DNA of 21,881 bases, taken from positions 1 through 21,881 of IMG/VR virus record IMGVR_UViG_3300021956_000086, one strand, 5' to 3'. The first letter of the stretch is position 1; the number at the start of each line of letters is the position of its first letter. The notes under the pieces are model-generated. The model did no database searches and was not told where the DNA came from. It saw nothing but the letters and a program-made list of their open reading frames with translations. A program made the position numbers and the translations under genes. Shown piece after piece: positions 3 through 21,881 of this stretch. This stretch comes from a virus.

Positions 3-2771
3 ACGACGATCCGGCTCTTAACCGAAGCCTCCGATCTCGTCACGCTTGAACTTGGTGGTTACCTTCTTCAGGAGACGATGGTCGCAGACCTTGCGGCGGA
101 ATCGTCCCTCTCGGCATCGATCTCGGTCACCCCGAGACTTTTAGCCGACACCTCGGCCACGGTTGACTTCTCTGCGGCCATCTCGACGCAGATCCGCGCT
201 GCGGCAGATATCCAATCGGTCGCAACGGAAACCGGCAGTCTCAGCACCCAGATCCGCGCATCTGCCCAACTGGGTGGTGAAGCCTCAGTTGCCCCGAGTC
301 TCTCGACGCAGATCAGGGCATCGGCTTCGCTTTCTGATTCCGTCTCGCTGTCCGCCCCGGTCACAACATCCATCACGGTCGTTTCCAACCCGACAGGTGA
401 ATCGACTGCAAGCGGTGATATTGCAACGCAGATCAATCTGGCCGCATCGATCCAATCTGAAGCATTGGCAGAAGCCAACCTCAGAACGTCCATCGATGCG
501 TTTGCTGCGGTTATTGGCGTCTCGAACCTGACTGACGCCAGCATCACGACCAGCATCAGCCTTGCGACGGACATCAGCCCACAGATCACTCTGGTTCAGG
601 AAGACGGCGGTCTGCTCCTGACCGAAGACGGGTTCACCCTGATCCACAGCAACGGCGACCCGTACTGCGAAGGCTTGCTCGGGTCCATCGTCAACCTCGA
701 TACGCACCTCTACTGCGAAACCGAGACGACTGCGAACCTCACGGCCCAGATCCTGATGTCCTCTGCGGCTAACGCGATTGCAACGGCTGCTGCGGATCTC
801 AACACCGTCATCCGGTTGGATCTCACTGCATCTGCGCTGTCATCAACGACGGCGGCGATCACGACCAGCATCAAGCTCGATGCGCCGCTTCAGGATGATG
901 CAAGTTTCTCCGGCGGGATCTCCACCCAGATCAAGGCGGTTGCTGCGCTTCTGGGAACGGCATCTGTTACGCCGGGTCTTTCGACTTCGATCAACCTTGC
1001 GGCCAGCCCCACGGCACTGGCAACGATTACCGCGCCGATCACCACCCGTATCGCGCTCAAGAGCGATCTGGCTAGCGAAGCCAGCCTGACGAGCGGCGTT
1101 ACCACCCAGATCAAGCTGGCGGCTGCGCTCAACTCCAATGCGGTCTTCGCCGCAGAACTTAAGACCTCGATCAATGCGCTGACCGCGCTAATTGGCGTAT
1201 CGAACATCTCAGATGCCGCGCTCACCGTCTACCGTGTCGATCCTCACTTCGACCGTCTCGACAACGCAATCTACATCGCTGAACTCCAAGCCTATGACCC
1301 GGCAACGTCCAGCGTCACGACTTGGCGGTTCTCGACGGGAACCGGATTCGATAACGGTGGCCAGTTCTATGAACCCCGCATCGAGCAACCCGCAACGCTG
1401 TCCCGGTCAATGGGTGGATCGTCAGCCGGTGGTCGGACCAGTCAGAGCTATGGTGAACTGACGCTGGTCAACAACGACGGTGGCATCAACGCGCTGGGTG
1501 ATGATTTCTTCGACGGTCGCACCTTGATCCTGAAGCGCGGCAACCCGGATCTGCCGTACTCGACATTCGCCACGGTCCTCGTTGCCACGGTTGAATCTGT
1601 CGCTATGGAGCGCGAAAGAATCTCTGTCCGACTTCGCGACAAGGCCGTCACGCTCGACACGCCATTTTCAAGCTCCAAGTACGCCGGGACCAATGTCCTG
1701 CCGAACGGCATCGAAGGCACGGCAGACGATCTCAAAGGCCAGCCCAAGCCGCGCATCTTTGGCCGCATCGCATTGATGTCACCGAAACTGGTGAATACCT
1801 CAAAGCTGATCTATCAGGTCAACGATGGCGCTGTGGACGCTGTGGTCAACGTGTTCGACGCCGGGGCCTATCTCACCAAGGTCGCCACCGATTACACCTC
1901 TCAGGCCGACATGGAGGCCAACGCGCCTCAAGCTGGAACATGGAGAGCGTGGCCAGCCGGTGGCTGTTTCCGACTGGGGTCTTCACCCTTCGGTCAAGTG
2001 TCCGCTTGCGTCGTTGAAAAGTGGGCCTACAACCAGTCCAACGCTTCAGGAATCCTTCAGCGCATCTTGACCGAGAAGGGCTACACCTCAAGCGACTGGG
2101 TGGCGTCCGACTTCACGACCCTGAGCCAGAAGAACGCAGGAACCTTGGGTGTCATTGTCAATGACGAAGAGACGACGGCCAGCCTTCTGGATCGCGTTTG
2201 CCAGTCCGTCGGAGCATGGTGGGGCTACGACTCACTGGGCCGATTCCGAGTCGCCCGTCTCGATGCCCCGGCAGGGGTTCCGATTACCACGCTGACTGAT
2301 TCCGAAATCCTCGAACTGGAACGCCAGCCTGAAGACAAACTCCCGATCTGGCAGACCACCATGAAAGCGGATGTGAACTACGTCGTTCAAGAGAAGTCTG
2401 CACTGGCCGGAGTCGTTGCAGACAATCGAGTTGCATGGTTCAACACCGAATCCCGAGATCAGAAAGTCTCTGACACCAATGTGAAGGCCGTCAGGCTGTT
2501 GGCAGAGGATGAGTCTTACGATTCGCTCCTGAACGGTATTTCTCAGGCGCAAGCGGAATCCAATCGCCGCCTTTCCCTTTTCTCAGTCCGTCGAGACACC
2601 GTGACTGTGACGCTGGCCAATCCTTATGACCACTACTCAAGTCTCGATCTTGGGGCTGTGGTGAGCTTGCAGACGGCAAAGCTCGGATACACCAGCGGCA
2701 AGTTGTTCACGGTAACCGGGGTGAACATCGACTATCAAGCGAACACCATCGATCTGACTTTGTGGGGCTAA
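3..2771 (+). CDS. Large repeat-rich phage tail protein, 5' end outside window
   Basis: The reading frame is open from the first bases of the window, so the ATG at 78 is internal and the gene begins upstream; at least 922 residues are present. The first ~410 residues (to about nt 1230) are low-complexity, Ala/Ser/Thr-rich tandem repeats of roughly 25 residues, each with a core like STQIRA or TTSIxL. They are interrupted by Gly-Leu-Leu-rich patches (LLLTEDG, near nt 610) that are common in phage tail fibres. The C-terminal ~510 residues are non-repetitive and globular, with a Trp/Tyr-rich stretch (SVGAWWGYDSLGRF, near nt 2205-2245). The next tail gene starts one base after the stop. Position and composition suggest a tail-tip, hub or fibre protein at the distal end of the tail. 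Family assignment is uncertain; the tail role is fairly secure from the neighbours. Confidence 0.75.
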   Translation, partial: TTIRLLTEASDLVTLELGGYLLQETMVADLAAESSLSASISVTPRLLADTSATVDFSAAISTQIRAAADIQSVATETGSLSTQIRASAQLGGEASVAPSLSTQIRASASLSDSVSLSAPVTTSITVVSNPTGESTASGDIATQINLAASIQSEALAEANLRTSIDAFAAVIGVSNLTDASITTSISLATDISPQITLVQEDGGLLLTEDGFTLIHSNGDPYCEGLLGSIVNLDTHLYCETETTANLTAQILMSSAANAIATAAADLNTVIRLDLTASALSSTTAAITTSIKLDAPLQDDASFSGGISTQIKAVAALLGTASVTPGLSTSINLAASPTALATITAPITTRIALKSDLASEASLTSGVTTQIKLAAALNSNAVFAAELKTSINALTALIGVSNISDAALTVYRVDPHFDRLDNAIYIAELQAYDPATSSVTTWRFSTGTGFDNGGQFYEPRIEQPATLSRSMGGSSAGGRTSQSYGELTLVNNDGGINALGDDFFDGRTLILKRGNPDLPYSTFATVLVATVESVAMERERISVRLRDKAVTLDTPFSSSKYAGTNVLPNGIEGTADDLKGQPKPRIFGRIALMSPKLVNTSKLIYQVNDGAVDAVVNVFDAGAYLTKVATDYTSQADMEANAPQAGTWRAWPAGGCFRLGSSPFGQVSACVVEKWAYNQSNASGILQRILTEKGYTSSDWVASDFTTLSQKNAGTLGVIVNDEETTASLLDRVCQSVGAWWGYDSLGRFRVARLDAPAGVPITTLTDSEILELERQPEDKLPIWQTTMKADVNYVVQEKSALAGVVADNRVAWFNTESRDQKVSDTNVKAVRLLAEDESYDSLLNGISQAQAESNRRLSLFSVRRDTVTVTLANPYDHYSSLDLGAVVSLQTAKLGYTSGKLFTVTGVNIDYQANTIDLTLWG

Positions 2772-7509: not shown

Positions 7510-7718
7510 TTCCGAGACTCTATCGCTTCGTCGATCTCCCTGATGGGGATCAGGCCGAACTTGTTGAACCGCAACGTGCCGGCCTTCAGCATCCTCCCCA
7601 CCGTGTGTCTGGAGACCCCGAGCATCTCAGCCGCTTGTTGTTGATTCACGTGAACTGGGCGCGGGTGTGATTCCGCATAAAGCCGAACAGCTTTGAGGGC
7701 TATTTCTAGTTCCGTCAT
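7506..7718 (-). CDS. Small HTH protein, probable excisionase/directionality factor
   Basis: A 70-residue protein with a helix-turn-helix of the excisionase/MerR-like type: VNQQQAAEMLGVSRHTVGRM near residues 24-43, followed by LKAGTLRFNKFGLIPIREID, the wing typical of AlpA/Xis-like DNA-binding domains. Lying immediately beside attP and upstream of the integrase, it most likely controls the direction of recombination; a transcriptional regulator is the alternative. The ATG overlaps the upstream TGA (ATGA) and is preceded by GAGGAAACAGC, a good ribosome-binding site. Its final codons run into the right-hand attP arm repeat (7500-7509). Confidence 0.75.
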   Translation of the reverse strand: MTELEIALKAVRLYAESHPRPVHVNQQQAAEMLGVSRHTVGRMLKAGTLRFNKFGLIPIREIDEAIESRK

Positions 7719-8236
7719 GCTGTTTCCTCTTTTTTAGAAGCCCTTTCAAATTCAAGAAACGTCAGCAGATCCCATCCTGTTACGCGCACAATATCTTTTT
7801 GCCCGTACCTAGTTGATTTGGTTCCAATTACGATATATCCAAGTTTTTTTTGGGCTAACCAAGATGTAACTTTGGTTATTGGGACTTGAAAAAGAAGAGC
7901 GACTTGCTGAGGAGTATAAACCGGATCAAACCTAGTAATTTGTTGATCAAGGTCTGCTCTTGATGCAGAAATTTTTGTTGTATAGGTATTCGGTTTGAAG
8001 CGGATAATATTATGTATTGGGTTTTCTTTTATAACAGCATTTTTTTCTGCTTCTAAAGCGGCTTCTCTAGTTGCGAATTGCTCAATATCAATTTTTGCAA
8101 TTTCTGAATACCATTTAGAAGCATTTTTATGTTGAGCAAGTCTATTGACGACATTCAACGACACCCCTACATATAAAAGCTTTCCGTCTTTATCAAAATG
8201 CCTATATAAACTACAGGATGAATTTTCGTCAGTCAT
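7715..8236 (-). CDS. GIY-YIG nuclease-domain protein with C-terminal HTH
   Basis: A 173-residue protein. Residues ~8-80 form a GIY-YIG domain: SLYRHF, then KLLYVGVS (the YIG equivalent), Arg32 in NRLAQH, Glu63 in EAEKNAVIK and Asn76 in NPIHNI, so the main catalytic positions are present. Residues ~105-150 (YTPQQVALLFQVPITKVTSW) look like a helix-turn-helix that could give DNA specificity. The DNA is distinctly AT-rich compared with the flanking genes and carries an A8 run (coding strand; 7844-7851), pointing to recent acquisition. It is inserted co-directionally with ATGA overlaps at both ends. It may be a free-standing homing-type endonuclease or a phage nuclease. No intron is visible. Confidence 0.8.
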   Translation of the reverse strand: MTDENSSCSLYRHFDKDGKLLYVGVSLNVVNRLAQHKNASKWYSEIAKIDIEQFATREAALEAEKNAVIKENPIHNIIRFKPNTYTTKISASRADLDQQITRFDPVYTPQQVALLFQVPITKVTSWLAQKKLGYIVIGTKSTRYGQKDIVRVTGWDLLTFLEFERASKKEETA

Positions 8237-9974: not shown

Positions 9975-10168
9975 CGGGTGATGATCCCCATTGAGACGAC
10001 CGTTTTAGAGTCCCAGGGCAGGGGGCGTTCTTTCTTTATCCACGGTTCCCGCACGGGCAAAACCTCAGCATCGAAGAACGGGCCGGAGACCTTGGTCACC
10101 TTCATATAAAAGTTGCCATCGCGGTAAATTTTTCCAACGTAAAGGTTGTGAAAAGGTTTGAATTTCAT
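9971..10168 (-). CDS. Hypothetical phage protein
   Basis: A 65-residue basic, β-rich protein (VGKIYRDGNFYMKVTKVSGP, then EVLPVREPWIKKERPLPW). No family is recognised. The pattern suggests a small SH3-like barrel, but that is only a guess. It has ATGA overlaps with both the SNF2 helicase gene before it and the Zn-ribbon gene after it, which supports it as a real gene in the operon. Confidence 0.6.
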   Translation of the reverse strand: MKFKPFHNLYVGKIYRDGNFYMKVTKVSGPFFDAEVLPVREPWIKKERPLPWDSKTVVSMGIITR

Positions 10169-11532
10169 CGCTTCATTGCCTCCATGAGTAGGTCTTGGAC
10201 TTCCCGCTTGGTTTCGCGGCGTTTCATTACGATCTCGTCCACCGTGCCGGCGGCGATGATCTGATGAATAAAGACGGGGCGCTTGTGACCGGCCTGAGCC
10301 TGACGGGTGGGGCCAATGCGCTCGATGATTTGCTGGTACTCCTCAAGGTTCCACCAATGCCCGAAGAAGGCGATGGTGTTTCCGCCATCCTGAAGGTTGA
10401 GCCCGTGCCCTGCTGACTGAGGGTGGGCAAACAGCATCGGGATCTTGCCGGCATTCCAGTCGCGAATCGTTGCGGGGTTTTTGTCCAGGACACGGGCTTT
10501 AGGAAACCGTTTCTGGAGCCGCTCAAGATCGGACTTGAAGTGGTAGGCCACTAGCACCGGCATCCCGGCGGCTTCTTCAAGGATGTCCTCAAGCGCGTCT
10601 AGCTTTTCATCATGGATCGGCTCCCAACCGGCTTCGGTATAAAGAGCGCCATTGGCAAGCTGAAGGCACTTGATCGTTTTGCTGGCTGCGCCGAATGCCT
10701 CGATGTCCTCGCCGGAATCCAGTTGGACGAACATCTCCTGCTCCATCTGTCGGTAAAGCTTTTCGGCTTTCGGTGGGAGCTTCACCCGGATGACATTGAC
10801 AATGGGTTCGTCAAGGTCGAAGTGGTCCGCCGCATTCAACGAAACGCAGAGGTCTTTCAACCGGCCTTCGATCTCGTTCTGGGAATGGGGATACGGTTCA
10901 AGCTTCATTTCATGCGCGTCAGATCCATAGCGAACCTGACGAAACCAACGGTCCTGAAACGCCTGGTACGAGTTGCCCAGACGCTCACCCTTATCGAGAT
11001 ACCAAACCTGACCCCAGAGATCGATCAGGCCATTGGGTGAGGGAGTGCCGGTCAGTTCGATGAAGCGGTCGATCTTGCTGAACGCGACCTTGGCCAGTGC
11101 CCGAGCGCGTTTGCCGCCCTGGCGCAGACGGAAACCCTTGAGCCGGGTGGATTCATCCGCGACCACCGTTTTCCAGGGCCAGTTCACGCCGACTTGTTCG
11201 AGGAGCCAGGGAAGGTTCTCGTAATTCGTGGTGTAGATTTTGGCCGGTTTCAGGATCGCCGCTTTGCGTTCAGCGGCGTTGCCGATGATCGGAGATACGG
11301 TAATTCCGTCGAGGTGATCCCATTTGCGGATTTCATCGGGCCAGGTTGATGCGGCAACGCGCAGCGGAGCCAGTACCAGGACCGGCCCCGGCTCAACGAT
11401 GTCGAGCGCATCGATGGCCGTCAGAGTCGAGATGGTCTTGCCAAGACCCATGCCGGCCCATACGGCACACCGGGGGTTGTCTACGATGTGATCGATGATG
11501 ATCTGCTGGTAAGGGCGGGGGGTGAATTTCAT
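10165..11532 (-). CDS. SNF2-type DEAD-like helicase
   Basis: A 455-residue protein from the ATG at 11532, which overlaps the upstream TGA (ATGA) and has GTGGGG 7 nt before it; the GTG at 11544 is a weaker alternative. Helicase motifs in order: PRPYQQ near residue 5, Walker A GMGLGKT at 27-33, Asp126-Glu127 in VVADESTRLKG (motif II), ELTGTPSPNG (motif III), HPQSAGHGLNLQ (motif V) and QIIERIGPTRQAQAG (motif VI). It then ends with a typical GTVDEIVMKRR. This is the compact phage SNF2 helicase found beside VRR-NUC and family A polymerase genes in many phages. It probably remodels DNA or protein-DNA complexes during replication or recombination, using ATP. Confidence 0.9.
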   Translation of the reverse strand: MKFTPRPYQQIIIDHIVDNPRCAVWAGMGLGKTISTLTAIDALDIVEPGPVLVLAPLRVAASTWPDEIRKWDHLDGITVSPIIGNAAERKAAILKPAKIYTTNYENLPWLLEQVGVNWPWKTVVADESTRLKGFRLRQGGKRARALAKVAFSKIDRFIELTGTPSPNGLIDLWGQVWYLDKGERLGNSYQAFQDRWFRQVRYGSDAHEMKLEPYPHSQNEIEGRLKDLCVSLNAADHFDLDEPIVNVIRVKLPPKAEKLYRQMEQEMFVQLDSGEDIEAFGAASKTIKCLQLANGALYTEAGWEPIHDEKLDALEDILEEAAGMPVLVAYHFKSDLERLQKRFPKARVLDKNPATIRDWNAGKIPMLFAHPQSAGHGLNLQDGGNTIAFFGHWWNLEEYQQIIERIGPTRQAQAGHKRPVFIHQIIAAGTVDEIVMKRRETKREVQDLLMEAMKR

Positions 11533-12086
11533 ATACAACCCCACTGCCGCGCCATTGCTTCAGCGATACCTTGATAAGTTATGCTTCGGAGATGCCCTCG
11601 ATCAGCAGATGGGGGCATTCGATGTATGCGGTTTTCTCTTCCTTCAACTATTTTGGTTGGGGTTAATTTTGGGAGACCCTTCAACCACAAACATGTGGCC
11701 TTAGTTTCACCATGACCAAATTGCCAAGGTTGAATAACTTGATCGGGTTTGCGCCACAAAGACGACATGATACAAACGGGGTTTTCGATGGCGATTCTGG
11801 GGATATCACATTTCGCCAATGACATGAAAAACGAAACAGCCGACTGCTGTCGCCCATCCAATCGTTTAGCGTCAAAATGCCTAGCGCCTGAAACAGATAA
11901 ATGTGTACAGGGAGGGTGAGCAATCATCAGATCCCACGGGTAATCAAGTAAATCGCGCACATCACCTTGGTAGTGCGGCCCAGGGGTGCTAGATGGGAGC
12001 AGATCACACGACATAGCTATAGCCCCCCCCCGTATGAATGCATCGCGAACTACACCGCTATATTCACAAGCGACAAGCACTTTCAC
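11529..12086 (-). CDS. Cytosine DNA methyltransferase-like phage protein
   Basis: A 185-residue protein starting with GTG at 12086 (the GTGA overlaps the VRR-NUC stop; GAGGTGCTGGC is the ribosome-binding site). It has an SAM-binding-like start (MKVLVACEYSGVVRDAF), a PPC motif at 58-60 in AHPPCTHLSVSG with the Cys equivalent to the C5-MTase nucleophile, and IENP at 100-103 in place of the usual ENV. At this length it has no obvious target-recognition domain, so it is a minimal or diverged enzyme. Such proteins are widespread in phages and are usually annotated as DNA cytosine methyltransferase; catalytic activity is not proven. A run of nine G lies in codons 19-21 (12023-12031), a potential slippage site. 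Base composition is lower in GC than its neighbours. Confidence 0.75.
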   Translation of the reverse strand: MKVLVACEYSGVVRDAFIRGGAIAMSCDLLPSSTPGPHYQGDVRDLLDYPWDLMIAHPPCTHLSVSGARHFDAKRLDGRQQSAVSFFMSLAKCDIPRIAIENPVCIMSSLWRKPDQVIQPWQFGHGETKATCLWLKGLPKLTPTKIVEGRENRIHRMPPSADRGHLRSITYQGIAEAMARQWGCI

Positions 12087-12349
12087 GCCAGCACCTCATC
12101 CACACGTTCAAAAGAATCCACGACTTCAACGATCTGGCCGACACGGCGCATCCGTTCGTGTTCACGATCCTGATGCGGCTCGGGAATTTCACCTGGGGCC
12201 TTGCACTCGACCCAGATCAGCCGGCCACCCGGCAACATTACGCAGCGATCCGGTGCCCCGCGACGGCCAATCCATTTCACTTTTCGGATCTCCCCACCAA
12301 GGTTGATGACCTTCTTGTAGAGGTAACCTTCGATATCTGCTTCGCGCAT
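12083..12349 (-). CDS. VRR-NUC domain nuclease
   Basis: An 88-residue, single-domain VRR-NUC protein (PD-(D/E)xK superfamily). The conserved pieces are all present: Glu3/Glu7 in MREADIEGYL, GG at 18-19, KWIGRRGAPDRCV with the catalytic Pro-Asp (33-34), VECK (Glu48-x-Lys50), and Gln60-His-x-x-x-x in HQDREHERMRRVGQ. Such proteins are structure-selective DNA nucleases; this stand-alone form is common next to SNF2 helicase genes in phages and may process replication or recombination intermediates. Its ATG overlaps the polymerase stop by one base (TGATG) and its TGA overlaps the methyltransferase start. Confidence 0.9.
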   Translation of the reverse strand: MREADIEGYLYKKVINLGGEIRKVKWIGRRGAPDRCVMLPGGRLIWVECKAPGEIPEPHQDREHERMRRVGQIVEVVDSFERVDEVLA

Positions 12350-14421
12350 CAGTCCTTCCTGTATCGATAAGTTTCAAAACCGGCAGCAGCCAATGGGAGG
12401 CCATCTACCCATGACGGAACCTTGGCCATGAGTGAGGCCAAATGCTCGACGTTGTATTCGGGAGAGTCGGGTGCCTCGGCGATGATTTCATCGTGGACCG
12501 TCAAAACGATCTGGTAGCCAGCGGCCTCGATGAGCGGCATGGAGTGCGCGAGAACGTCGCGGCTCATGGCCTGGGTGAGGTTTTCAGTCAGCTTTCCACC
12601 GTAGGTGTTCAAGCGTTCCCATTTACGGGTGTACTGATTCAGACCCATGTAGGAGAGTTTCCCGCTGTCGTCCACATGAACGCCGGGATAGCAGAGGTAG
12701 CGCCCCGAGGGCATCCGAATACGGAGCCAAGTTCCGTCGCGGCGGATAGGGAATTTCCGCTTGCCAGCGTAGTAGGTCTTACCGGAGTCAAGCGCGGCAG
12801 CGATTGCCTGTTCCTCGATGTCCTTCCAGAAAGCCGAAGTGTTCGAATGGGCTTCACGCCAGAGGGCTTTGATGGCGTCACAGACGATCCAGGTCTTATC
12901 GGTCAGACCGTAGGCGGGCATCTTCTTTTGCCGTGCCCATTCACGCATCCCGGTGGAGTCGAGAAGGGTCTGAGCCGGGATGCTGGCGTGAGCTTTCTCA
13001 GCCATTTCTTCGAGATCGATGCCAAAGCCGGTGGCGAATGTCACCCAGGCCCCGACCGCACCCTGGTATCCGAACGCAAGTTCCTGAACCTTTCCGACCT
13101 GACGCTGATCCTTGGTGACCTCTGCCGGATCAACACCGAAAGATTTAGCGTAGGCCAGCTTGTAGAGGTCATGGCCGCAGCCAAGATCAAACGCCTCGAA
13201 AGCCTCAAGCTTCCAATTTTCTTTTGCGATCCAAGCCAGCATCCGGCCTTCGATGTTTGAAAGATCCGCGATCACCAACTTCTTGCCCTTGGGCGCAACG
13301 ATGCAGCCCCGAATGGCGCTGGAGGTCAACTCCATGATGTTGTCGGTGAAGAGGTCTTCGCACCCAGCTTTCAGGGCCTCGATGCCGATCTCGATGTCTT
13401 CATGGTCGAGCGATGGACGGGGAAGGTTCTGCGGTTGGAATGTACGACCAGACCATCGACCGGTGCGGCTGGCTCCGCAGAACTGAAGTGTCCCGCGCAG
13501 CCGGCCATCTAGATTTGTTGCGTTGACGAGCGCCGTATATTTCGCTGTCGAGGTGGTTGACGCCTGAAGGCGGTTATTCAAAAGCGCAACCAGTTCCTGT
13601 GGCAGTTGCCCCGAACTGATGTACCTTTCAAGGGTGCTACCTTGAAGATCCGGCAAAGCCAGACCATAAACATCTTCAATATGACGCAGCATCGCGTTGC
13701 GCTGGGTGGACGCACCCACGTCGCCGTTGGTGGCTTCATTGATCTCGAACGCGAGACGCTTTTGCTCAAGAGCGGTGGCTCTTACGGCGGCGTGGGCGAG
13801 TTCGAGATCAATACAGACTCCACGGTCATTGATGCGCTGATCGAGATGCCAGAGGGCAAGCTCGTAATCCGACATATTCCACTTGGGAAGTCGGCGGTAG
13901 CACTCGCGCATGGCGACAATGTCCTGACCCGCGTAGGCCACAAACTTTGCCCATTCTTCTGGGTGGGTTTCAGCCGTTGCACGGCGGATCTTGGATTTCT
14001 GAGGGCGCGGCTTACAAAAAAGCCCGATCAGCTTTTTGCCTTCCGCGTCTTTCGAATCCTCGTCTGATACACCCAGGACCGCGCAAAGGTTGGCCAGCCC
14101 AGCCGGGAGGCTATGAGCCAGTGCCATGATCATGGTGTCGCGCCACCGTTCGACGGGTGGGCACAGATTAGGGAAATTGGAGCGCAACATGAGCCGGTCG
14201 AAGCGGCTGTTGTGCGCGATGACCGTGACGGTCGGATCTTTCAACGCTTCGGCGAGGTCCGCCGGCATTTTGCTATCCGCCGTAGCGTCCCAAACCTTTG
14301 GTGGCTGATCGTCGAACGCATAGGCGTGGATAATCTGTTCCACGGTCTCGGCGTACTTGTCAGCCCCAAAGGAAATGGGTTCCGCGTTGTAGGTTTCGCA
14401 GTCGAACCAGAGGATGGTCAT
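12349..14421 (-). CDS. Family A DNA polymerase with 3'-5' exonuclease domain
   Basis: A 690-residue protein when started at the ATG at 14421, which overlaps the upstream TGA and follows GTGGGG by 7 nt; an in-frame ATG at 14436 would add five residues. Exonuclease motifs: Exo I WFDCET (Asp7, Glu9), Exo II HNSRFD (Asn71, Asp75), Exo III YAGQD (Tyr163, Asp167). The central region is helical. Polymerase motifs: motif A VIADLSNIEGRMLAW (near 385), motif B GKVQELAFGYQGA, motif C LTVHDEIIAE (near 640). No 5'-3' exonuclease domain is present, as usual for phage Pol I-like enzymes. It should be the replicative polymerase, with proofreading. It lies beside nuclease, helicase and SSB genes in a module order shared by many phages. 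Confidence 0.95.
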   Translation of the reverse strand: MTILWFDCETYNAEPISFGADKYAETVEQIIHAYAFDDQPPKVWDATADSKMPADLAEALKDPTVTVIAHNSRFDRLMLRSNFPNLCPPVERWRDTMIMALAHSLPAGLANLCAVLGVSDEDSKDAEGKKLIGLFCKPRPQKSKIRRATAETHPEEWAKFVAYAGQDIVAMRECYRRLPKWNMSDYELALWHLDQRINDRGVCIDLELAHAAVRATALEQKRLAFEINEATNGDVGASTQRNAMLRHIEDVYGLALPDLQGSTLERYISSGQLPQELVALLNNRLQASTTSTAKYTALVNATNLDGRLRGTLQFCGASRTGRWSGRTFQPQNLPRPSLDHEDIEIGIEALKAGCEDLFTDNIMELTSSAIRGCIVAPKGKKLVIADLSNIEGRMLAWIAKENWKLEAFEAFDLGCGHDLYKLAYAKSFGVDPAEVTKDQRQVGKVQELAFGYQGAVGAWVTFATGFGIDLEEMAEKAHASIPAQTLLDSTGMREWARQKKMPAYGLTDKTWIVCDAIKALWREAHSNTSAFWKDIEEQAIAAALDSGKTYYAGKRKFPIRRDGTWLRIRMPSGRYLCYPGVHVDDSGKLSYMGLNQYTRKWERLNTYGGKLTENLTQAMSRDVLAHSMPLIEAAGYQIVLTVHDEIIAEAPDSPEYNVEHLASLMAKVPSWVDGLPLAAAGFETYRYRKD

Positions 14422-15200
14422 GCAGCTTCCCCACATAGCCCTAAGAGGTCTGCTAACTTTGGAAGGAAGTTATATTCAAAAGATGGCGCAACTAGCCGCC
14501 CTGCGCTTGAGAAATTAAGCTCGGGTTTTAATAGTCGAATATATAAACCCTCAAGTAAATCTAGCTTCGATTGATCGCATAAAAGTACTGAGAATGAATC
14601 AAAATCTTTTGAGCCAGAATGTTGAGAAATTCTAGCGGCAACATTAATGCTTTGTCCTACGTATACAACTTTATCTTCTTTAAATAAAAAATATACGCCG
14701 CATTTTGGCGTCCATTTTTGCCTTCCAGCCCAAATTTCTTCCAGACAGGCAAAAGGTACGCCCAAATCGTACATTATTGTTTTTACTAATATTGATTTTT
14801 CAAACTTTTCAATCTTAAACTTCAGATCGGTTTTTTTAGATTCCATTATTTCTATCTGCGCCCTCAAGACAGATACATGCTGTTTCATTTTTTCAATGTC
14901 TAGGGTTAACTTTTCAGCAAGCTGAGTTGTAGGGTGTATTACACAGTATCCTTCAGCAAGTGTTCTAAATAGAAAATCCTTAACCAAATAAAACGCTGTA
15001 AAAGTTCCGCGATTGTTTTCACGGTTCATTACTTTAAACTTTCTACCAGCTTCAATTCTTTTACGAAGAATAGTTGCTAGGGTGCATTCTTCTACTTTGA
15101 AAACCTCTCGTTCAATTTGAGCCAATGTCATCCATTCTTTTAGTAAACATCTATCAATAAAATTAGGAATCTTTTCGTTATAGGAACTTTCGTTTTTCAT
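14418..15200 (-). CDS. GIY-YIG protein with N-terminal winged-helix-like region and coiled coil
   Basis: A 260-residue protein. Residues ~15-75 may form a winged-helix DNA-binding region (MTLAQIEREVFKVEECTLAT). Residues ~95-136 are a strong coiled coil (KLTLDIEKMKQHVSVLRAQI). Residues ~165-235 are a GIY-YIG domain with GVY (168-170), YVG (180-182), Arg190, Glu217 and Asn229. The DNA is markedly AT-rich, and the start and end are ATGA overlaps. The 13-bp sequence GGAAGCTGCATGA occurs at both gene boundaries (15209-15197 and 14430-14418), as if the gene had been inserted precisely between the upstream gene and the polymerase gene. This is a strong candidate for a recently acquired homing-endonuclease-like element. 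Confidence 0.85.
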   Translation of the reverse strand: MKNESSYNEKIPNFIDRCLLKEWMTLAQIEREVFKVEECTLATILRKRIEAGRKFKVMNRENNRGTFTAFYLVKDFLFRTLAEGYCVIHPTTQLAEKLTLDIEKMKQHVSVLRAQIEIMESKKTDLKFKIEKFEKSILVKTIMYDLGVPFACLEEIWAGRQKWTPKCGVYFLFKEDKVVYVGQSINVAARISQHSGSKDFDSFSVLLCDQSKLDLLEGLYIRLLKPELNFSSAGRLVAPSFEYNFLPKLADLLGLCGEAA

Positions 15201-15517
15201 GCAGCTTCCTGCCCGACTGAGCGGAACTCGAAAAGGCCGGCATGTTCTGGATGCGCGAGAGCGAACAATCGGGCTAACGAAGGAGTAAGGTTGTTGTTCA
15301 ATTTGAACTCACCATCCGTCTCCTGAAGCAGGGTTTCATGGCGAATGAACTCTTTGATCGTATACGCCGAGTAGTGGGACCGACCGCTGCGGACGACCCG
15401 CAGCGATTCAGCCTCGAAACGTTCCCAAATTGGGAAGTTGTCGGTGAGCCAATCGAGGAACGATTGGGGGATGTCTGGGTGCGATGCAGCCAGGAGGAAG
15501 AGTTGTTCTTGGGTCAT
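15197..15517 (-). CDS. Conserved phage protein of unknown function
   Basis: A 106-residue protein with a pattern common in phage replication regions: PIWERFEAESLRVVRSGRSH, then IKEFIRHETLL, then FKLNNNLTPSLARLFALAHP and a FEFRSVG end. The family fold and role are not established as far as I know; the spacing suggests a compact helical, perhaps winged-helix-like protein. GC-rich codon use contrasts with the following GIY-YIG gene. The ATG is well placed behind GAGGAAGCACC. Its last bases (GGAAGCTGCATGA) are repeated at the end of the GIY-YIG gene, so before that insertion it probably overlapped the polymerase start directly. Confidence 0.75.
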   Translation of the reverse strand: MTQEQLFLLAASHPDIPQSFLDWLTDNFPIWERFEAESLRVVRSGRSHYSAYTIKEFIRHETLLQETDGEFKLNNNLTPSLARLFALAHPEHAGLFEFRSVGQEAA

Positions 15518-15540
15518 GGTGCTTCCTCAATAAAAAAGCA

Positions 15541-15783
15541 TTACGCGACACGCCAAACGCCGATGCCGTCCTCATGCGGACGAACGACGAAGCGATGTTG
15601 GATAGCGCCAGTGCGGCGGCGGTATGCGCCGACTGCTGAAAGGAGGGTGCGGATTCCACCCGTAGGGGCTTCGGAACCCGGAATCCAAAACATCTGGCCG
15701 ACCTTGAGATCCGCAAAGGGATACTTCGCCTTGCGGCCCCGGTAATCGGGTGGGACTGGAATGTCCGAAAGAATTTGGATCAT
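15541..15783 (-). CDS. Small DUF7303-like phage protein
   Basis: An 80-residue protein: PFADLKVGQMFWIPGSE followed by RRRTGAIQHRFVVRPHEDG and GVWRVA. This matches the DUF7303-like pattern (a P-F-x-x-L-x-V-G-x-x-F segment, then an Arg-rich strand and a terminal V-W-R) common in phage early regions. Function unknown. The ATG has AAGGA as ribosome-binding site. A rho-independent-type terminator lies just upstream (15797-15821), so its expression should depend on readthrough or processing of the SSB transcript. Confidence 0.6.
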   Translation of the reverse strand: MIQILSDIPVPPDYRGRKAKYPFADLKVGQMFWIPGSEAPTGGIRTLLSAVGAYRRRTGAIQHRFVVRPHEDGIGVWRVA

Positions 15784-15796
15784 GTCTGAATCCTTA

Positions 15797-15821
15797 AAAA
15801 AGACCCGGCCCGAAGGCCGGG
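15797..15821 (-). terminator. Rho-independent-type terminator inside the early operon
   Basis: A perfect 7-bp stem CCCGGCC/GGCCGGG (15804-15810 with 15815-15821) around a CGAA loop. On the minus strand it is followed by TCTTTTTT, the usual terminator form. It lies 3' of the SSB-like gene and upstream of the remaining replication genes, so it should reduce rather than end expression of the distal operon, or be bypassed by antitermination. No T-run follows on the plus strand. Confidence 0.8.
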
Positions 15822-15961
15822 GTTAAATGGGAAGGCGTTTCTAACTGGGGTCTCGCTGAAACCGCACCTGGATACGTCTTCGGCTCTGAGAAAGGTCGAT
15901 ACGAACTTCGTATCTGAAGGGGCTTTAAGCGAACTCTTCCGCCAAAGCGCCTTCAGATACG
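15822..15961 (-). promoter_or_regulatory. Intergenic region with nested inverted repeats downstream of the SSB gene
   Basis: The 103-bp spacer between the SSB stop and the terminator contains a 17-bp palindrome GATACGAACTTCGTATC (15898-15914). A 12-bp inverted repeat, CGTATCTGAAGG (15909-15920) with CCTTCAGATACG (15950-15961), overlaps the palindrome by six bases, so the two folds exclude each other. The rightmost arm lies in the final SSB codons. GATACGTC is repeated at 15871-15878 and 15956-15963. Two competing hairpins just before a terminator look like an attenuator or an RNA-processing/stability element; no function is proven. Confidence 0.45.
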
Positions 15962-16476
15962 TCGTCGAAGTCATCCGCATCGGCGATCAGGCCACCAGAG
16001 AATGCTTCGCCGTCACGTGCAAACTGGATCGGACCCAGGGTTGCGAAGATGCCTTTGCCGTACTGACGGTCGTCAGCCCAGATATCGACGAAGGCGTTGA
16101 CGTAGCAGCCGGGATAGGGCTTGCCGTCTTCCTGGGTGAGCGGGGTTTTGTCAGAATCGACAACGGTGACGCGGGTCTTGCTGGACGCGCTCAGGAACAG
16201 GTTGCCGGCATAGCCAGCGAACTGCGCTTTGGTTTCGCCGTCCTTCAAGCAGAACTTCATCGGGTTGGCGCGAATGGTTTTCACCACGGCTTCACCCTTG
16301 TCTTTCCACTTTTCGGCAGCGATAGCCTTGATTGCAGATTCGATAGCCAGGTGGGCTTCGCTATTTGGAGCAAACAGGAAGGTGGCGCTGAATTTGGCGT
16401 CGCCTTGACCCATGACTTGTTCAGCTTTCCAGAGCTTCGGGAAAGCTAGACGGACGTTTTTAAGTGCTACTCGCAT
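15925..16476 (-). CDS. DUF2815-family single-stranded DNA-binding protein
   Basis: A 183-residue protein. The start VALKNVRLAFPKLWKAEQV and the later SKTRVTVVD, YPGCYVNAFVDIWA and FATLGPIQFARDG segments match the DUF2815 family, phage SSB proteins with an OB-like fold. The C-terminus is strongly acidic (ADADDFDDVSEGALAEEFA), as in SSBs that recruit partners by an acidic tail. It coats single-stranded DNA during replication. GAGGTACATCA precedes the ATG. It follows the DUF2800 gene by 9 bp, the usual pairing of these two families. Confidence 0.9.
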   Translation of the reverse strand: MRVALKNVRLAFPKLWKAEQVMGQGDAKFSATFLFAPNSEAHLAIESAIKAIAAEKWKDKGEAVVKTIRANPMKFCLKDGETKAQFAGYAGNLFLSASSKTRVTVVDSDKTPLTQEDGKPYPGCYVNAFVDIWADDRQYGKGIFATLGPIQFARDGEAFSGGLIADADDFDDVSEGALAEEFA

Positions 16477-16485
16477 TGATGTACC

Positions 16486-17658
16486 TCAGTTGCAGTTATC
16501 GAAAAGATCAGCGCCCATAACGAGGGCAGGGCGTTTATCGGACTCCGGGGCAACACTCGGTTTGCCTTCGGATTGGGTGATGAACGGGACAAAGGTCGAG
16601 CCAAAGTCCAGTCCAGATTTCTTGGCCAGCTTTTCAGCGACGGCGGGTGAGATCAGGGTGTGTTTGAAGGCGTCTTCGCCAAAGGCCACTTCGAGCCGTT
16701 CGATCAGTTGCTCGTCGTCGGTCCATTCACGGTTTCCGCGCTTGCCTTCAACTAACTTGAATCCGGGCACCGGTTCGCCGGCAAAAAGTTCACTTTCAAC
16801 GCGGCCACGAATGGCTTTGCACCAGTCCTCGATCAGAGGAATCGCAGCCATGCAGTTGCCCAGAGATTGGTTATCCATCTCGCGCTCCGTTACGGTTATG
16901 GGTTTGGTGAGATCGACGAAGTCATCGCAGACAATCGTCATGACGTGATTGGCGAGGGCGGGGCACTCGGCCTTTGCCTTGCACCATTTGCATTGCTTCT
17001 CACCAGGGTTGAAGTGGTGATCCTGAAGAGAGGTCTTTGCTGCCTCGATCTGCATCGCGGCACGAAGAAGCTCTGTGCGGAATTGCTCTAGGCGCTCGGG
17101 AGTTGTTTCCCACCGATCAAAGTGATTAAGGCGCGGCTGGCCAATGTGGATCTCGACGCGCTTGAAGTCGCCGTAAAACCGATACTGGTCATAGGCTGCA
17201 AGGGCATAGGTCAGAAGTTGAGGGTTCTCTTCAGCGAAAACCTTCACGCCCATCCCGTACTTGAGATCCGCGATCTTGAGAACGTCGTCATGGATGCTGA
17301 CAACGTCTGCCGTTCCACTGGCTCCGGGTTCGAGCGTCAGTTCTCCGATTGGGAGTTTTTGCTCGAGCATCGTGACGCCGCCCCAGATAAAGGTATCGAC
17401 GTAGTCGAGCCAAGCCTTGATGTGGCCAACCATGTCATCATCGACAATGAATTTGAAACCATCGGATTCGAATTCATGGCCAACAAACTCAAAAGGGCTG
17501 CGACCTTCCAATTTCGCGAGATAGGAAACCTCGTGAGCAACGCTTCCTTCAGCCGCGAACTCGGTTGCCTGATCTGGTTTGCCGGCTGACATCGGAATGG
17601 CCGCAGGACACGCCATCCACGTTGCGGCTCCGCTTGGAGACTTTTCTGCGTGTGCCAT
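16486..17658 (-). CDS. DUF2800-family PD-(D/E)xK nuclease with Cys cluster
   Basis: A 390-residue protein. Residues 1-45 hold ACPAA (Cys17) and EGSVAHE (His42). The PD-(D/E)xK core is Asp118 in GTADVV, Asp131-x-Lys133 in IADLKYGMGV and Gln147 in ENPQLLTYA. Cys223, Cys226 and Cys232 (KQCKWCKAKAECPAL), together with Cys17, reproduce the one-plus-three cysteine layout of the Fe-S nucleases AddB/Cas4. This is the DUF2800 type of RecB-like exonuclease, found with DUF2815 SSBs in many phages. It probably resects or matures DNA ends for replication/recombination. The C-terminal ~120 residues are a separate, less conserved region. The ATG directly follows the preceding TAA. Confidence 0.85.
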   Translation of the reverse strand: MAHAEKSPSGAATWMACPAAIPMSAGKPDQATEFAAEGSVAHEVSYLAKLEGRSPFEFVGHEFESDGFKFIVDDDMVGHIKAWLDYVDTFIWGGVTMLEQKLPIGELTLEPGASGTADVVSIHDDVLKIADLKYGMGVKVFAEENPQLLTYALAAYDQYRFYGDFKRVEIHIGQPRLNHFDRWETTPERLEQFRTELLRAAMQIEAAKTSLQDHHFNPGEKQCKWCKAKAECPALANHVMTIVCDDFVDLTKPITVTEREMDNQSLGNCMAAIPLIEDWCKAIRGRVESELFAGEPVPGFKLVEGKRGNREWTDDEQLIERLEVAFGEDAFKHTLISPAVAEKLAKKSGLDFGSTFVPFITQSEGKPSVAPESDKRPALVMGADLFDNCN

Positions 17659-18238: not shown

Positions 18239-18907
18239 TCAGGGCTGGTAGAGCGCCCCGGATGGACAGATCGCCGCTACATAGTGGATCGCTTCCACTT
18301 CTTCCTGGAATAGGATGACGGGTTCAAAATCCGCGTTGATGCTGGAAAGGCGGACTTCGTTGTCCTTGATATAAAGCAGTTCTTTAACGAGCTTACGGCC
18401 ATCTCGGCAGATGACGACGACATCGTCGCCGGGTGAAACTGTGTGGTTCGGCTCAACGATCAGGAATTCACCTGACTTGATGCGGGGCCTCATGCTGTCG
18501 CCGCGAACGCGCAGGGCATAGGCATTCTTATCTCGGGCAGGGTATTCCACGTGACCATCTCCTTGTCCAGTTGGGTATCCAAGTTCTTCCAAGAACCCAT
18601 CTGGGCCGCCTTTAACGTGCCCAACGACTGGGACTTGCTTGAACCCTGACATAGGAAATCCCGTATGCTCGGCAAGAGCATCGTTCAGATTGTCCATGCC
18701 TCGGCAATCGCCCTCGACAAGCCAGACAAGCGACACGCCGAAATATTTGGCGATTGGCTCCAAGGTAGCCCGTCTTGGTTCTTTGCTCTCACCGCTCAAG
18801 ATGCGAAAGATTGACGGCTGATTAACCTTGGTCTCCCGCGCAAGGACTGTCGGATTGATCCCGTGCTTCTCGATCAGGTAGGCCAGATTTTCCTTTAAAT
18901 TGTTCAT
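18239..18907 (-). CDS. CI-like repressor with S24/LexA-type autoproteolysis domain
   Basis: A 222-residue protein started at the ATG at 18907; the longer ATG at 18976 would cross the operators. Residues ~5-65 are a helix-turn-helix (AYLIEKHGINPTVLARETKV, then NQPSIFRIL). The S24 domain carries the catalytic Ser138 in RVRGDSMRP and Lys175 in LVKELLY, with the 37-residue spacing of LexA. The cleavage site is HVKGGPDG (Gly100-Gly101) instead of the usual Ala-Gly. It should repress the early promoters and be inactivated by RecA during the SOS response. It is transcribed leftward, divergent from the Cro-like gene. The ATG lies almost at the predicted transcription start with no ribosome-binding site, as in the leaderless cI mRNA of lambda. 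Confidence 0.9.
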   Translation of the reverse strand: MNNLKENLAYLIEKHGINPTVLARETKVNQPSIFRILSGESKEPRRATLEPIAKYFGVSLVWLVEGDCRGMDNLNDALAEHTGFPMSGFKQVPVVGHVKGGPDGFLEELGYPTGQGDGHVEYPARDKNAYALRVRGDSMRPRIKSGEFLIVEPNHTVSPGDDVVVICRDGRKLVKELLYIKDNEVRLSSINADFEPVILFQEEVEAIHYVAAICPSGALYQP

Positions 18908-19017: not shown

Positions 19018-19224
19018 ATGGACCCCATTTTTCAAATGAACCCGCACGATCTGGTGAAGCGCCTGTTGGAGCTTGGCTGGACACAGGAACAGATCGCTAA
19101 GGCGCTCGATGTCACCCAGCCGACGGTTTGCCGCATGGTGATGTCGCCGACTGTACGACCCCGTCACGATATTGTGGATAAGCTTCGCCAAGTCGTCTAC
19201 GAGATCGACGGGTTCGCGGCATGA
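19018..19224 (+). CDS. Cro-like HTH regulator
   Basis: A 68-residue protein, almost entirely helix-turn-helix: LVKRLLELGWTQEQIAKALD, then VTQPTVCRMVMS. It is led by a very good ribosome-binding site (GGAGGATTTT before the ATG). It is the first gene of the rightward operon, divergent from the CI-like repressor and separated from it by operator-like repeats, so a Cro role is likely: repressing the lysogenic promoter and tuning the early ones. Its stop codon overlaps the primase start (ATGA at 19221-19224), so the two are coupled. Confidence 0.8.
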   Translation: MDPIFQMNPHDLVKRLLELGWTQEQIAKALDVTQPTVCRMVMSPTVRPRHDIVDKLRQVVYEIDGFAA

Positions 19225-21386
19225 TGAGTGCGCCGACACCCCTTTTACCCTACGACGGTTCCGACATACCGGAACTGCTCCGCCAAGAGAAACGCTGGGC
19301 ACCGTGGAAAGCGACATGGAACGCGGATCGCCAGAAATGGGACAAGGTTCCGCGCCACCCAAACAATCCCGCCGAGTGGGGCCTCTCAACCGCAAAGCTT
19401 GAAAGCTGGGTCGGTTACGAGACGGCCAGAAAGGCATTCGAAGCACACAAGGAACATCTGGCCGGCCTCGGCTATTTGATGACCGGTGAGCATGGCGTCG
19501 TCGGTTACGACCTCGATGACTGTGTCCAGGACGGCGTCGTCGCTGAGTGGGCGAGGGCGGTTGTCGAGCGGGTGAAGTCCTACTGCGAGTGGAGTCCATC
19601 GGGCAACGGTCTACGGATCTTCTGCAAGGGCAGCATTCCGCGTGATTGGGCGAATCACGATCAGGGCATCGAGTGTTATGGCGGACATCGCCCTCGCTTT
19701 CTCACCTTAACCGGTCGCCGGTTCGAGGATGCTCCGCTCGACGTTCTTGAGATCCCGCACGACGTTCACGAAGACCTGATGGCGCAGTACGCCAAGACCC
19801 AGCAGACCGCTGAAGTGATCAGCATCGCGATGCCGGAAGTCCTGGACGAGATGTGTCTTCCCGATTTCAAGGATCTTGGTCTCCCGCAGAAGGTAGAACG
19901 CTACCTTGCTGAAGGTGAGCATGATGGCGACCGCTCGGCGATCCTTCATATGTGCGGCGTTTCGCTTTTCTCCAAAGGGCTGACCGATACCGAGGTGTTC
20001 TCGATGTTGGTCAACAACCCGTTCGTGTTCGAGACGGCGCTTGATAAGCGTCGGCAGGACGAGGATCGGGCGATGCTTTACCTCTGGAAGGAGCATTGCT
20101 TAAAGGCTCGGGGCAAAGCGGTGCGGATGACCGCTGACGATTTCGAGGATGTCTCGACAGGGGGAGGTTCAGGCTCCGCTAGTAGCCCATCACCTCAACC
20201 GAAGCCGGGTTTCGTTCGCGATAAGCACGGAATGATCGAGGCGACGGTCGATAACGTCACCAAGGGCGTCCGAAGCAAGGTGGTGATTAGCATGGAGGTC
20301 CGAAAGGATGTCTTCAAGGATGAGATCGTCGTCTCTGAAGATGGCGTCAACTGGAGGCCCTTCCGCGACGATGACTACACCCGGCTTCGGATCATTCTGG
20401 AACGCCAGAGCTTCAAACCCGTTGGGCGTGAACTGATTCGCGATGCGGTGGATCTGGTAGCCAAGGACAACGAGTTCGACACGGCGATCCATTGGCTTTC
20501 AGGTCTTCCCGATTGGGATGGCATTCCGAGGGTCGGTCAGTTCTTGGCTGATTATTTCGGTGTCGATGATTGCGAGTACACCTCTGCGGTGTCCTCTTAT
20601 ATGTGGACGGCGATGGCCGGCAGAGTGCTGTCGCCCGGTATCAAGGCCGATATGGCTCCGATCCTGATCGGTGAGCAGGGCGCTAAGAAATCGTCGAGCA
20701 TCGAGGCGCTGGTGCCGTCGCATGAGTTCTTTACCGAGATGGACATCGACGAGCGCCGTGAGTCGGACAACAGTCGAAAGATGCGCGGTGTCCTGGTCGC
20801 TGAATTGGCCGAGTTGAAGGGCCTCCGTAACCGTGAAGCGGAATACGTGAAGGCGTTCATCAGCCGGACCCATGAAGAATGGGTGCCGAAATTTCGGGAG
20901 TTCGCGACCAAGTTCCCGCGTCGGTTGATCTTCATCGGTACGACCAATGAGTTCCAGTTCCTGAACGACGACACGGGCAATCGTCGATTCCTTCCTGTCG
21001 TGACCAAGATGGCCGATATCAAAGGCATCAAGGACAACCGGGATCAGTTGTGGGCCGAAGCCCGTGACCTGTTCCTGGCGTCGGGCATCGCGTACCAGGA
21101 AGCGGAACGCTTGGCCAAGTTCGTCCACGCGCAGCACATGCTGCATGAACCGTGGACGGATGACATTCGGAAGTGGCTCGATACCGAGGAGGACTTCGGG
21201 ATCACACCCAGGCAGAGGGAAATGCTGACGACGGGGGAGGTCATGCGTGAAGCACTTCGGCTTGATGTGACCAAGAAAGATCGATGGGCAGAGATGCGCG
21301 TCGGTAAGGCGCTCGTCGAATTGGGCTACCAACGAGCAAAACGGCGCATCGAAGGTAAGCCGACATGGGTTTACGTTCCTACCTAG
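19221..21386 (+). CDS. Prim-Pol/VirE-type primase-helicase
   Basis: A 721-residue protein. The N-terminus (RWAPWKATW, KVPRHPNNP) and the region to ~200 form an AEP Prim-Pol domain: GYDLDDC with Asp97 and Asp99, SPSGNGLRIF (Arg where many relatives have a His) and GIECYGGHRPRFLTLTGR. Residues ~430-640 are a VirE-type superfamily 3-like ATPase: SGLPDWDGIPRV, Walker A GEQGAKKSS (484-492), Walker B-like VLVAELAELKG and FIGTTNEFQF followed by NRRFLPV (arginine finger). Layout and length resemble the phage NrS-1 primase-polymerase/helicase. It should unwind DNA and make primers at the origin. The gene's last codons are themselves an origin repeat (GTTCCTACC at 21375-21383). Confidence 0.9.
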   Translation: MMSAPTPLLPYDGSDIPELLRQEKRWAPWKATWNADRQKWDKVPRHPNNPAEWGLSTAKLESWVGYETARKAFEAHKEHLAGLGYLMTGEHGVVGYDLDDCVQDGVVAEWARAVVERVKSYCEWSPSGNGLRIFCKGSIPRDWANHDQGIECYGGHRPRFLTLTGRRFEDAPLDVLEIPHDVHEDLMAQYAKTQQTAEVISIAMPEVLDEMCLPDFKDLGLPQKVERYLAEGEHDGDRSAILHMCGVSLFSKGLTDTEVFSMLVNNPFVFETALDKRRQDEDRAMLYLWKEHCLKARGKAVRMTADDFEDVSTGGGSGSASSPSPQPKPGFVRDKHGMIEATVDNVTKGVRSKVVISMEVRKDVFKDEIVVSEDGVNWRPFRDDDYTRLRIILERQSFKPVGRELIRDAVDLVAKDNEFDTAIHWLSGLPDWDGIPRVGQFLADYFGVDDCEYTSAVSSYMWTAMAGRVLSPGIKADMAPILIGEQGAKKSSSIEALVPSHEFFTEMDIDERRESDNSRKMRGVLVAELAELKGLRNREAEYVKAFISRTHEEWVPKFREFATKFPRRLIFIGTTNEFQFLNDDTGNRRFLPVVTKMADIKGIKDNRDQLWAEARDLFLASGIAYQEAERLAKFVHAQHMLHEPWTDDIRKWLDTEEDFGITPRQREMLTTGEVMREALRLDVTKKDRWAEMRVGKALVELGYQRAKRRIEGKPTWVYVPT

Positions 21387-21619
21387 TTCCTACCCCGTTC
21401 CTACCAAATTTCGAGGAGGTAGGAACGGCTGGAAACCTTGCACTGTAAGGCTTTCATTAAAAGTGTTCCTACCGTTCCTACCTAATTTAATTGTTTTGTA
21501 TTGTAAAAATTACATATACACAGGGACTCCTAGGTATTAGTAGGAAACTGGAAGGATCGCTAGGTTCAGGTAGGAACGGCCATATAAATCAATAAGTTAA
21601 AAAAGGGGGAGGTAGGATC
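21375..21619. repeat. Iteron array with AT-rich core, probable phage replication origin
   Basis: The 9-bp unit GTTCCTACC occurs at 21375, 21386, 21397 (exact 11-bp spacing), 21465 and 21474 (adjacent), and inverted as GGTAGGAAC at 21418 and 21569. Several copies share an 11-bp form, CCGTTCCTACC. Degenerate copies (one mismatch or more) lie at 21539, 21550 and 21611. An AT-rich stretch without repeats fills 21483-21521. The copies at 21397 and 21418 form a perfect 11-bp hairpin with a 12-nt loop. The gap 21387-21653 holds no other gene. Clustered, phased iterons with an AT-rich core beside a primase-helicase are the usual phage/plasmid origin design; a regulatory array is the alternative. Confidence 0.7.
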
Positions 21620-21653
21620 GCTTTTAGGCTTCCGCGCCCCTGGGTGAAAAAAC

Positions 21654-21881
21654 ATGAGTGACCGATACCTGGCAGTAGAAAAACCCGAATGGCATCTCGT
21701 TTTCGATGAGAAGCCACCTTTGGGCGTCAGCCTCCACCTGTTGATGGAGTGGGGCGCATGTATCCGGGGAACCTATGACCCGTCATGGGGAGTGGTTGCC
21801 TGGAGGGAGTTACCCAAAATGACTCCCGAGCAAAAACAAAGAATGCTGGACTTGAAAGCCAGCGGAATTGACTTGAAACGA
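21654..21881 (+). CDS. Hypothetical phage protein, 3' end outside window
   Basis: An ATG at 21654 opens a 76-codon frame that runs to the window edge without a stop. It begins MSDRYLAVEKPEWHLVFDEK and has a Trp-rich middle (MEWGACIRGTYDPSWGVVAW), then a charged helical end (MTPEQKQRMLDLKASGIDLK). Possible ribosome-binding sequence GGGTG lies about 8 bp ahead. It follows the iteron array and reads in the same direction as the primase gene. No family is recognised; the reading frame and codon use look genuine, but the rest of the protein is not visible. Confidence 0.6.
   Translation, partial: MSDRYLAVEKPEWHLVFDEKPPLGVSLHLLMEWGACIRGTYDPSWGVVAWRELPKMTPEQKQRMLDLKASGIDLKR

Follow-up and report, generated by a model that had tools for sequence, protein, structure and literature searches.

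A repeat array at the end of a primase-helicase gene

A cluster of 9-bp repeats at the 3′-end of a phage primase-helicase gene is very probably an iteron-type replication origin, this being the best reading of the repeats. It is highly likely that the array is the site at which replication of the phage starts, and that the product of the gene just upstream attaches to the 9-bp units by means of a C-terminal winged helix, melts an AT-rich core and primes DNA synthesis. What was computed here is the array itself, the conservation of its position and layout in related loci, and its covariation with the wing of that winged helix.

The window (the whole stretch of DNA analysed, a 21,881-bp IMG/VR record) contains seven exact copies of GTTCCTACC or, in inverted orientation, GGTAGGAAC; five are direct and two inverted, and all lie within 21375-21577. 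No exact or one-mismatch copy was found outside the array anywhere in the record, and a control search of the record with the reversed pattern gave no matches. The array scored 7.9, as against a maximum of 3.1 for 10 dinucleotide shuffles and of 3.35 for 10 control segments taken from the same record. Its elements are as follows:

21375-21383, + strand: iteron 1, GTTCCTACC, overlapping the final primase codons
21386-21394, + strand: iteron 2, GTTCCTACC
21397-21405, + strand: iteron 3, GTTCCTACC
21418-21426, − strand: iteron 4, inverted, reading GGTAGGAAC on the + strand
21465-21473, + strand: iteron 5, GTTCCTACC, opening the conserved 9-bp tandem (from family geometry)
21474-21482, + strand: iteron 6, GTTCCTACC, second in the 9-bp tandem (from family geometry)
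21483-21523, no strand: AT-rich core, candidate DNA-unwinding element (direct count, 7/41 GC)
21539-21547, − strand: degenerate inverted copy AGTAGGAAA, two mismatches
21550-21558, − strand: degenerate inverted copy GGAAGGATC, two mismatches
21569-21577, − strand: iteron 7, inverted, reading GGTAGGAAC on the + strand, right arm
21611-21619, − strand: iteron 8, inverted, reading GGTAGGATC on the + strand, one mismatch

The first three iterons are exactly 11 bp apart, and iterons 5 and 6 (starting at 21465 and 21474) are separated by 9 bp. In the region of iteron 1, GTT CCT ACC TAG specifies the end of the primase, V-P-T-stop. The element AGTAGGAAA at 21539-21547 may alternatively correspond to TATTAATAGGAAA, a conserved spacer element of the relatives. 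A preliminary description of this DNA had reported seven exact 9-bp copies (five direct, two inverted) together with degenerate ones, an AT-rich core between the groups and a position directly after the gene for the Prim-Pol/VirE protein; the copies were recounted and the number holds, the core has the composition listed above, and the first unit reaches into the stop region of the gene. Short direct repeats beside an initiator gene, with an adjoining AT-rich region, are what an iteron origin has, and both are present. No DnaA boxes were found in the array, and the search for terminator-like hairpins returned one, which equals the chance expectation.

The upstream protein combines a Prim-Pol domain with a VapE-type helicase

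The gene preceding the array encodes a protein of 721 residues with the following parts:

19221-21386, + strand: initiator primase-helicase gene, 721 aa (Prim-Pol, VapE-type helicase and predicted C-terminal winged helix)
19263-19850, + strand: NrS-1-type Prim-Pol domain, about residues 15-210 (phmmer matches to 7ola, 6a9w, 7rr3 and 6k9a; PHROG primase families)
20505-21116, + strand: VapE-like AAA+ helicase domain, residues 429-632 (PF05272)
21198-21383, + strand: C-terminal winged helix, about residues 660-721, the predicted iteron reader (AlphaFold2 model; covariation)
21327-21380, + strand: beta-hairpin wing, residues 703-720, with 707, 709, 714 and 716 as the top covarying residues

In phmmer searches the N-terminal part matched 7ola (E = 5.4e-16) and the NrS-1 structures 6a9w (7e-14) and 6k9a (9e-14), so a Prim-Pol domain homologous to that of NrS-1-like primase-polymerases is present, and the primase is of the AEP rather than the Toprim type. 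The VapE-like helicase domain was recognized by PF05272 (E = 1e-58), and the helicase part matched 7pds (VapE; E = 1.1e-27). The records of 7ola and 7pds carry the names DNA primase, PriRep1 and similar to D. nodosus vapE, and we take both to be SaPI-type proteins. An AlphaFold2 model of the protein (mean pLDDT 85, pTM 0.55) gave as its best Foldseek match 7pds, PriRep1 with dsDNA (1e-24), the NrS-1 structures matching as well. At the C-terminus the model predicts two helices (671-678 and 688-700) and, after them, a hairpin (703-710/713-720), which is the plan of a winged helix.

Elsewhere in the window, a replication cassette on the opposite strand (10165-17658, −) encodes an SNF2-type helicase, a DNA polymerase A, an Enc34-type ssDNA-binding protein and a DUF2800/PD-(D/E)XK protein. 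Two ORFs on the same strand (14418-15200 and 7715-8236, both −) contain a VYVGQSINVAARISQH / LYVGVSLNVVNRLAQH stretch that resembles a GIY-YIG nuclease motif, the former ORF sitting in an island of 35% GC. At the left end, the large ORF 3-2771 (+) has an N-terminal part made up of repeated LSTQIRASA-like modules, each some 25-30 residues long.

The layout of the array is conserved while its letters vary

Related loci were drawn from viral and genome contigs, phages and plasmids, and an array was called when the score over 333 bp at the gene end exceeded the 99th percentile of control segments. Searching for the repeats beside homologous primase genes, as the preliminary description had proposed, revealed arrays at the same place in 110 of 118 primase loci (the window counted), the other eight having none above the threshold in those 333 bp. 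Layout was analysed on 111 usable motifs, namely these 110 plus that of locus L043, which scored just below the threshold. Across the family there are 44 different unit sequences; the letters vary and the layout is kept. A direct tandem occurs in 98/111 loci, and the spacing is 9 bp in 146 of 157 central-tandem spacings; the 11-bp phasing put forward in the preliminary description is therefore exact for the first three copies in the window and does not extend to the family as a rule. In 81/98 loci the first unit extends into the 3′-end of the primase gene. From the direct to the first inverted unit the gap has a median of 68 bp; the window departs from this with a weak right arm and a longer gap than typical, of 95 bp counted to its first exact inverted unit. 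GC content in the gap is 33%, compared with 53% for the locus, and it is lower in the gap in 91/92 cases. The core GTTCCTAC is common to the window and Acidovorax phage ACF1.

Distant VapE genes with downstream arrays of other layouts were found in phages of Staphylococcus, Enterococcus, Paenibacillus and Corynebacterium, and in two streptococcal satellites. Post-VapE arrays with other letters and spacings were seen in loci L143, L144, L145, L146, L147 and L151, which belong to Gram-positive phages and streptococcal satellites. There was no such array after the VapE genes of Pseudomonas LPPA36 and Phocaeicola BD26P2, and only short or scattered repeats follow the VapE gene of Rhodobacter BigEagle and Pseudomonas DP1.

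The preliminary description had paired the array with an NrS-1-like primase. Arrays were, however, found with varied N-terminal modules on the VapE genes (other AEP types, Toprim or none), which shows that the array goes with the VapE helicase and its winged helix, the primase module being the part that varies. The family alignment of the N-terminal 300 residues displays swapping of the primase module, with several AEP types and Toprim represented, and a conserved helicase half.

Plasmids of 13-15 kb also bear a VapE gene followed by such repeats. In the small circular plasmids L138, L027 and L031 the VapE gene (about 430 aa) precedes the repeats. L138, a 12,879-bp Enterobacter plasmid, has both the VapE gene and the array, and a Pfam scan of its ten other ORFs found no replication initiator domain. 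One related plasmid does carry a separate replication protein, so the plasmids provide only a hint.

Unit sequence covaries with the wing of the predicted winged helix

Covariation was computed over 57 non-redundant loci, controlling for helicase distance. The distance between unit sequences correlated with that between residues 701-718 (partial r = 0.49, P = 0.0005), the value for residues 645-700 being r = 0.19. When codons overlapping the units were masked, r was 0.47 for residues 701-716; masking cost nothing, on which ground codon overlap was rejected as the source of the covariation. A 12-residue scan along the protein placed the covariation peak at 700-716 and showed two minor ones, at 664 and 340. 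Recognition of the iterons by the C-terminal domain, a mark of SaPI-type systems, is predicted here from this strong covariation at 700-716. Linkage is another possible source: the wing codons adjoin the array, and recombination could carry wing and array together. This explanation is only weakened by the data, since residues 673-700 covary less than residues 645-672 although they lie nearer to the array, and since some close pairs keep their spacers while the units change.

Changes of this last type are seen between some close relatives. In the pair L024/L083, whose helicases are 99% identical, the units are 42% and the spacers 83% identical; the corresponding values are 60% and 80% for L123/L127, and 49% and 74% for L009/L010. 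Spacer identity exceeded unit identity in 23 of the 41 pairs compared, so a change of units with retention of spacers is a trait of some pairs, not a rule. Downstream of the primase in the three pairs named, eight or so units change together and the spacers are largely kept.

The four columns with the highest mutual information were 709, 707, 714 and 716. In the predicted hairpin, 709 would face 714 and 707 would face 716 across the two strands. Units starting with TA or AA were accompanied by Q714 and by a residue other than R/K at 709 in 12/12 loci, and units starting with G mostly by R709. On the helicase tree, unit class and residue 714 change together ten times; the traits for this tree test were picked on the same data, which makes the printed P-values optimistic. 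Residue 692 of the recognition helix was also considered as a partner of unit positions 7-9, and was discarded because its strong mutual information was not matched by coincident changes on the tree. The resulting wing rule (R709 with G first; Q714 with T or A first, then A) fits 21 of 21 further classifiable loci, which are less than 90% identical to the earlier ones over tail and array and are relatives rather than independent lineages; 18 of them belong to the majority class, so that the three minority-class fits carry most weight. Two of the 21 (L203 and L159) were read as reverse complements, being in the opposite orientation.

This pattern suggests that a few C-terminal residues read the repeats. 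We are inclined, on balance, to think that the VapE-type wing holds a short recognition code in which residues 707, 709, 714 and 716 set the letters of the unit, that repeated switches in different lineages have rewritten all units, sometimes with the spacers kept, and that relatives and satellites in this way use mutually exclusive origins.

Alternative roles for the repeats

Direct units to the left and inverted units to the right of an AT-rich gap formally make up a large stem-loop, and an origin in which the arms fold back on each other for the protein to assemble there has been proposed for pRN1 and for Bordetella phages; pRN1 requires a stem-loop of ∼100 bp located 3′ of its Prim-Pol/SF3 gene (PMC4234260). 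Such folding is very improbable here. In 40 of 60 loci the two arms do not keep the same register (the spacing is 9 on the left and often 10 on the right), and for this reason a stem-loop was discarded as the principal mechanism; there are also further units beyond the stretch that would form the stem, some of them inside the coding region. In the precedents themselves, BPP-1 and pRN1, the helicase is of the D5_N type and a comparable array of 9-mers is absent, whereas the helicase in the window is VapE. That the array acts mainly in dose control, the primase limiting its own expression or setting incompatibility while the origin fires elsewhere, is very improbable: opposed arms on either side of an AT-rich gap are how an origin is laid out, and arrays like this one serve as origins in the homologues that have been studied best (PMC7581432). 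The overlap of the first unit with the end of the primase gene, seen in the window as in the 81 loci mentioned above, would nevertheless suit such a role, as would the additional annotation of the Sfi21 origin record as a phage-inhibitory sequence, and a control role could exist alongside origin function.

Least probable of all is that the repeats are operators read by a CI-like or Cro-like phage regulator instead of the primase. Genes for a repressor (18239-18904) and a Cro-like protein (19018-19224) do lie just upstream of the primase gene, but neither the repressor/Cro intergenic region, where the repressor promoter would be expected, nor the rest of the fragment contains an exact or one-mismatch copy of the unit, and no sigma-70-like promoter was detected in 21200-21881. 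Binding by a regulator rather than by the primase had been named in the preliminary description as evidence that would count against an origin. In 20 loci sharing one Cro-like family (a set to which the window does not belong), the distance between Cro-like proteins was unrelated to that between units (r = −0.04, P = 0.64), while in the same 20 loci the wing gave 0.73; this comparison concerns the Cro-like protein and led to its rejection as the reader of the repeats. The Cro-like neighbour thus does not covary with the repeats and the C-terminus of the primase does.

The origin interpretation of the preliminary description is supported, having withstood those of its own refutation tests that could be run. 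The GC skew calculation that it had proposed was carried out on four phage genomes (YeP5, APSE-1, BPP-1 and Sfi21) and proved uninformative, with no consistent switch at the array; in APSE-1 the skew minimum lies 2.2 kb from the array, near a change in the direction of transcription. A second origin elsewhere in the phage genome is possible, as the 21,881-bp record is a fragment.

Proposed mechanism and significance

For an iteron origin at this position, the sequence of events can be inferred from the homologues. The C-terminal winged helix would attach the primase-helicase to the 9-bp units, whose first letters would be read by the beta-hairpin wing. Copies of the protein would then assemble into rings on the direct units to the left and the inverted units to the right of the AT-rich core, and the helicase would melt the core. 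Synthesis would be primed by the fused Prim-Pol domain, probably in both directions, and the primed strands would be extended by the phage DNA polymerase A together with the single-strand binding protein.

A likely origin is thereby placed for a large group of phages whose replication start is mostly unmapped, as far as our searches show. The 44 unit sequences provide a natural data set for reading and testing a rule of protein–DNA recognition. The results also bear on the published proposal of stem-loops for Prim-Pol/helicase initiators, and on the means by which replication systems are kept separate among related phages, plasmids and satellites.

Comparison with known replication systems

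P4 has, in its alpha/ori-crr system, a second iteron cluster away from ori. P4 alpha contains a Toprim primase, whereas the window primase is of the AEP type, and no second cluster is present in the 21,881-bp fragment, an incomplete record. The deep-sea phage NrS-1 shares the homologous Prim-Pol domain and a fold match in the helicase region (6k9c), but its C-terminal region is only 12% identical to the window protein in a structure alignment. In pRN1 ORF904 and BPP-1, a Prim-Pol domain is likewise combined with an SF3-type helicase and a winged helix, with the origin 3′ of the gene (PMC4234260); they differ in their D5_N helicase and in an origin described as a stem-loop, and no 9-bp iteron array was found in them. 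In the PLE satellites of Vibrio cholerae, the origin and the DNA-binding domain of RepA vary together, and replication needs cognate pairs (PMC8263062); that initiator has a RepA_N domain, so the parallel is one of specificity variation and not of homology.

The preliminary description considered origins of this type to be poorly described for phages with an NrS-1-like primase, yet such origins are already on record for relatives, namely for SaPI Rep and SCCmec Cch2 (PMC7581432) and, as an annotation, in Sfi21; a literature search of partial coverage returned no paper describing this array family in VapE phages. In Streptococcus thermophilus phage Sfi21, a 302-bp non-coding origin is annotated after a putative primase, and its plan is that of the window, with direct repeats at +60/+68, an AT-rich gap and inverted repeats at +146/+154; its helicase, however, is Pox_D5/DUF5906 and not VapE, and its units are spaced by 8 instead of 9. 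The C-terminal domain of SCCmec Cch2 binds direct repeats just 3′ of its own gene, at a putative origin, this sequence-specific binding having been demonstrated; Cch2 differs in having only three 5-nt iterons, a primase supplied as a separate protein pair, and a Primase_Cterm domain of the D5_N type (PMC7581432). In the SaPI Rep helicases it is the C-terminal domain that recognizes the iterons, which lie directly 3′ of the helicase gene (PMC7581432, eLife 2020, SCCmec). The window system resembles SaPI Rep/ori in its self-loading helicase of the same sequence family (homology to 7pds and 7ola) and in iterons directly 3′ of the gene, and differs in belonging to a phage group and in its 9-bp units 9 bp apart, opposed arms and other letters. 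Most likely, then, the window array as an object belongs to a known kind, and its readable, repeatedly changed specificity is the part worth following.
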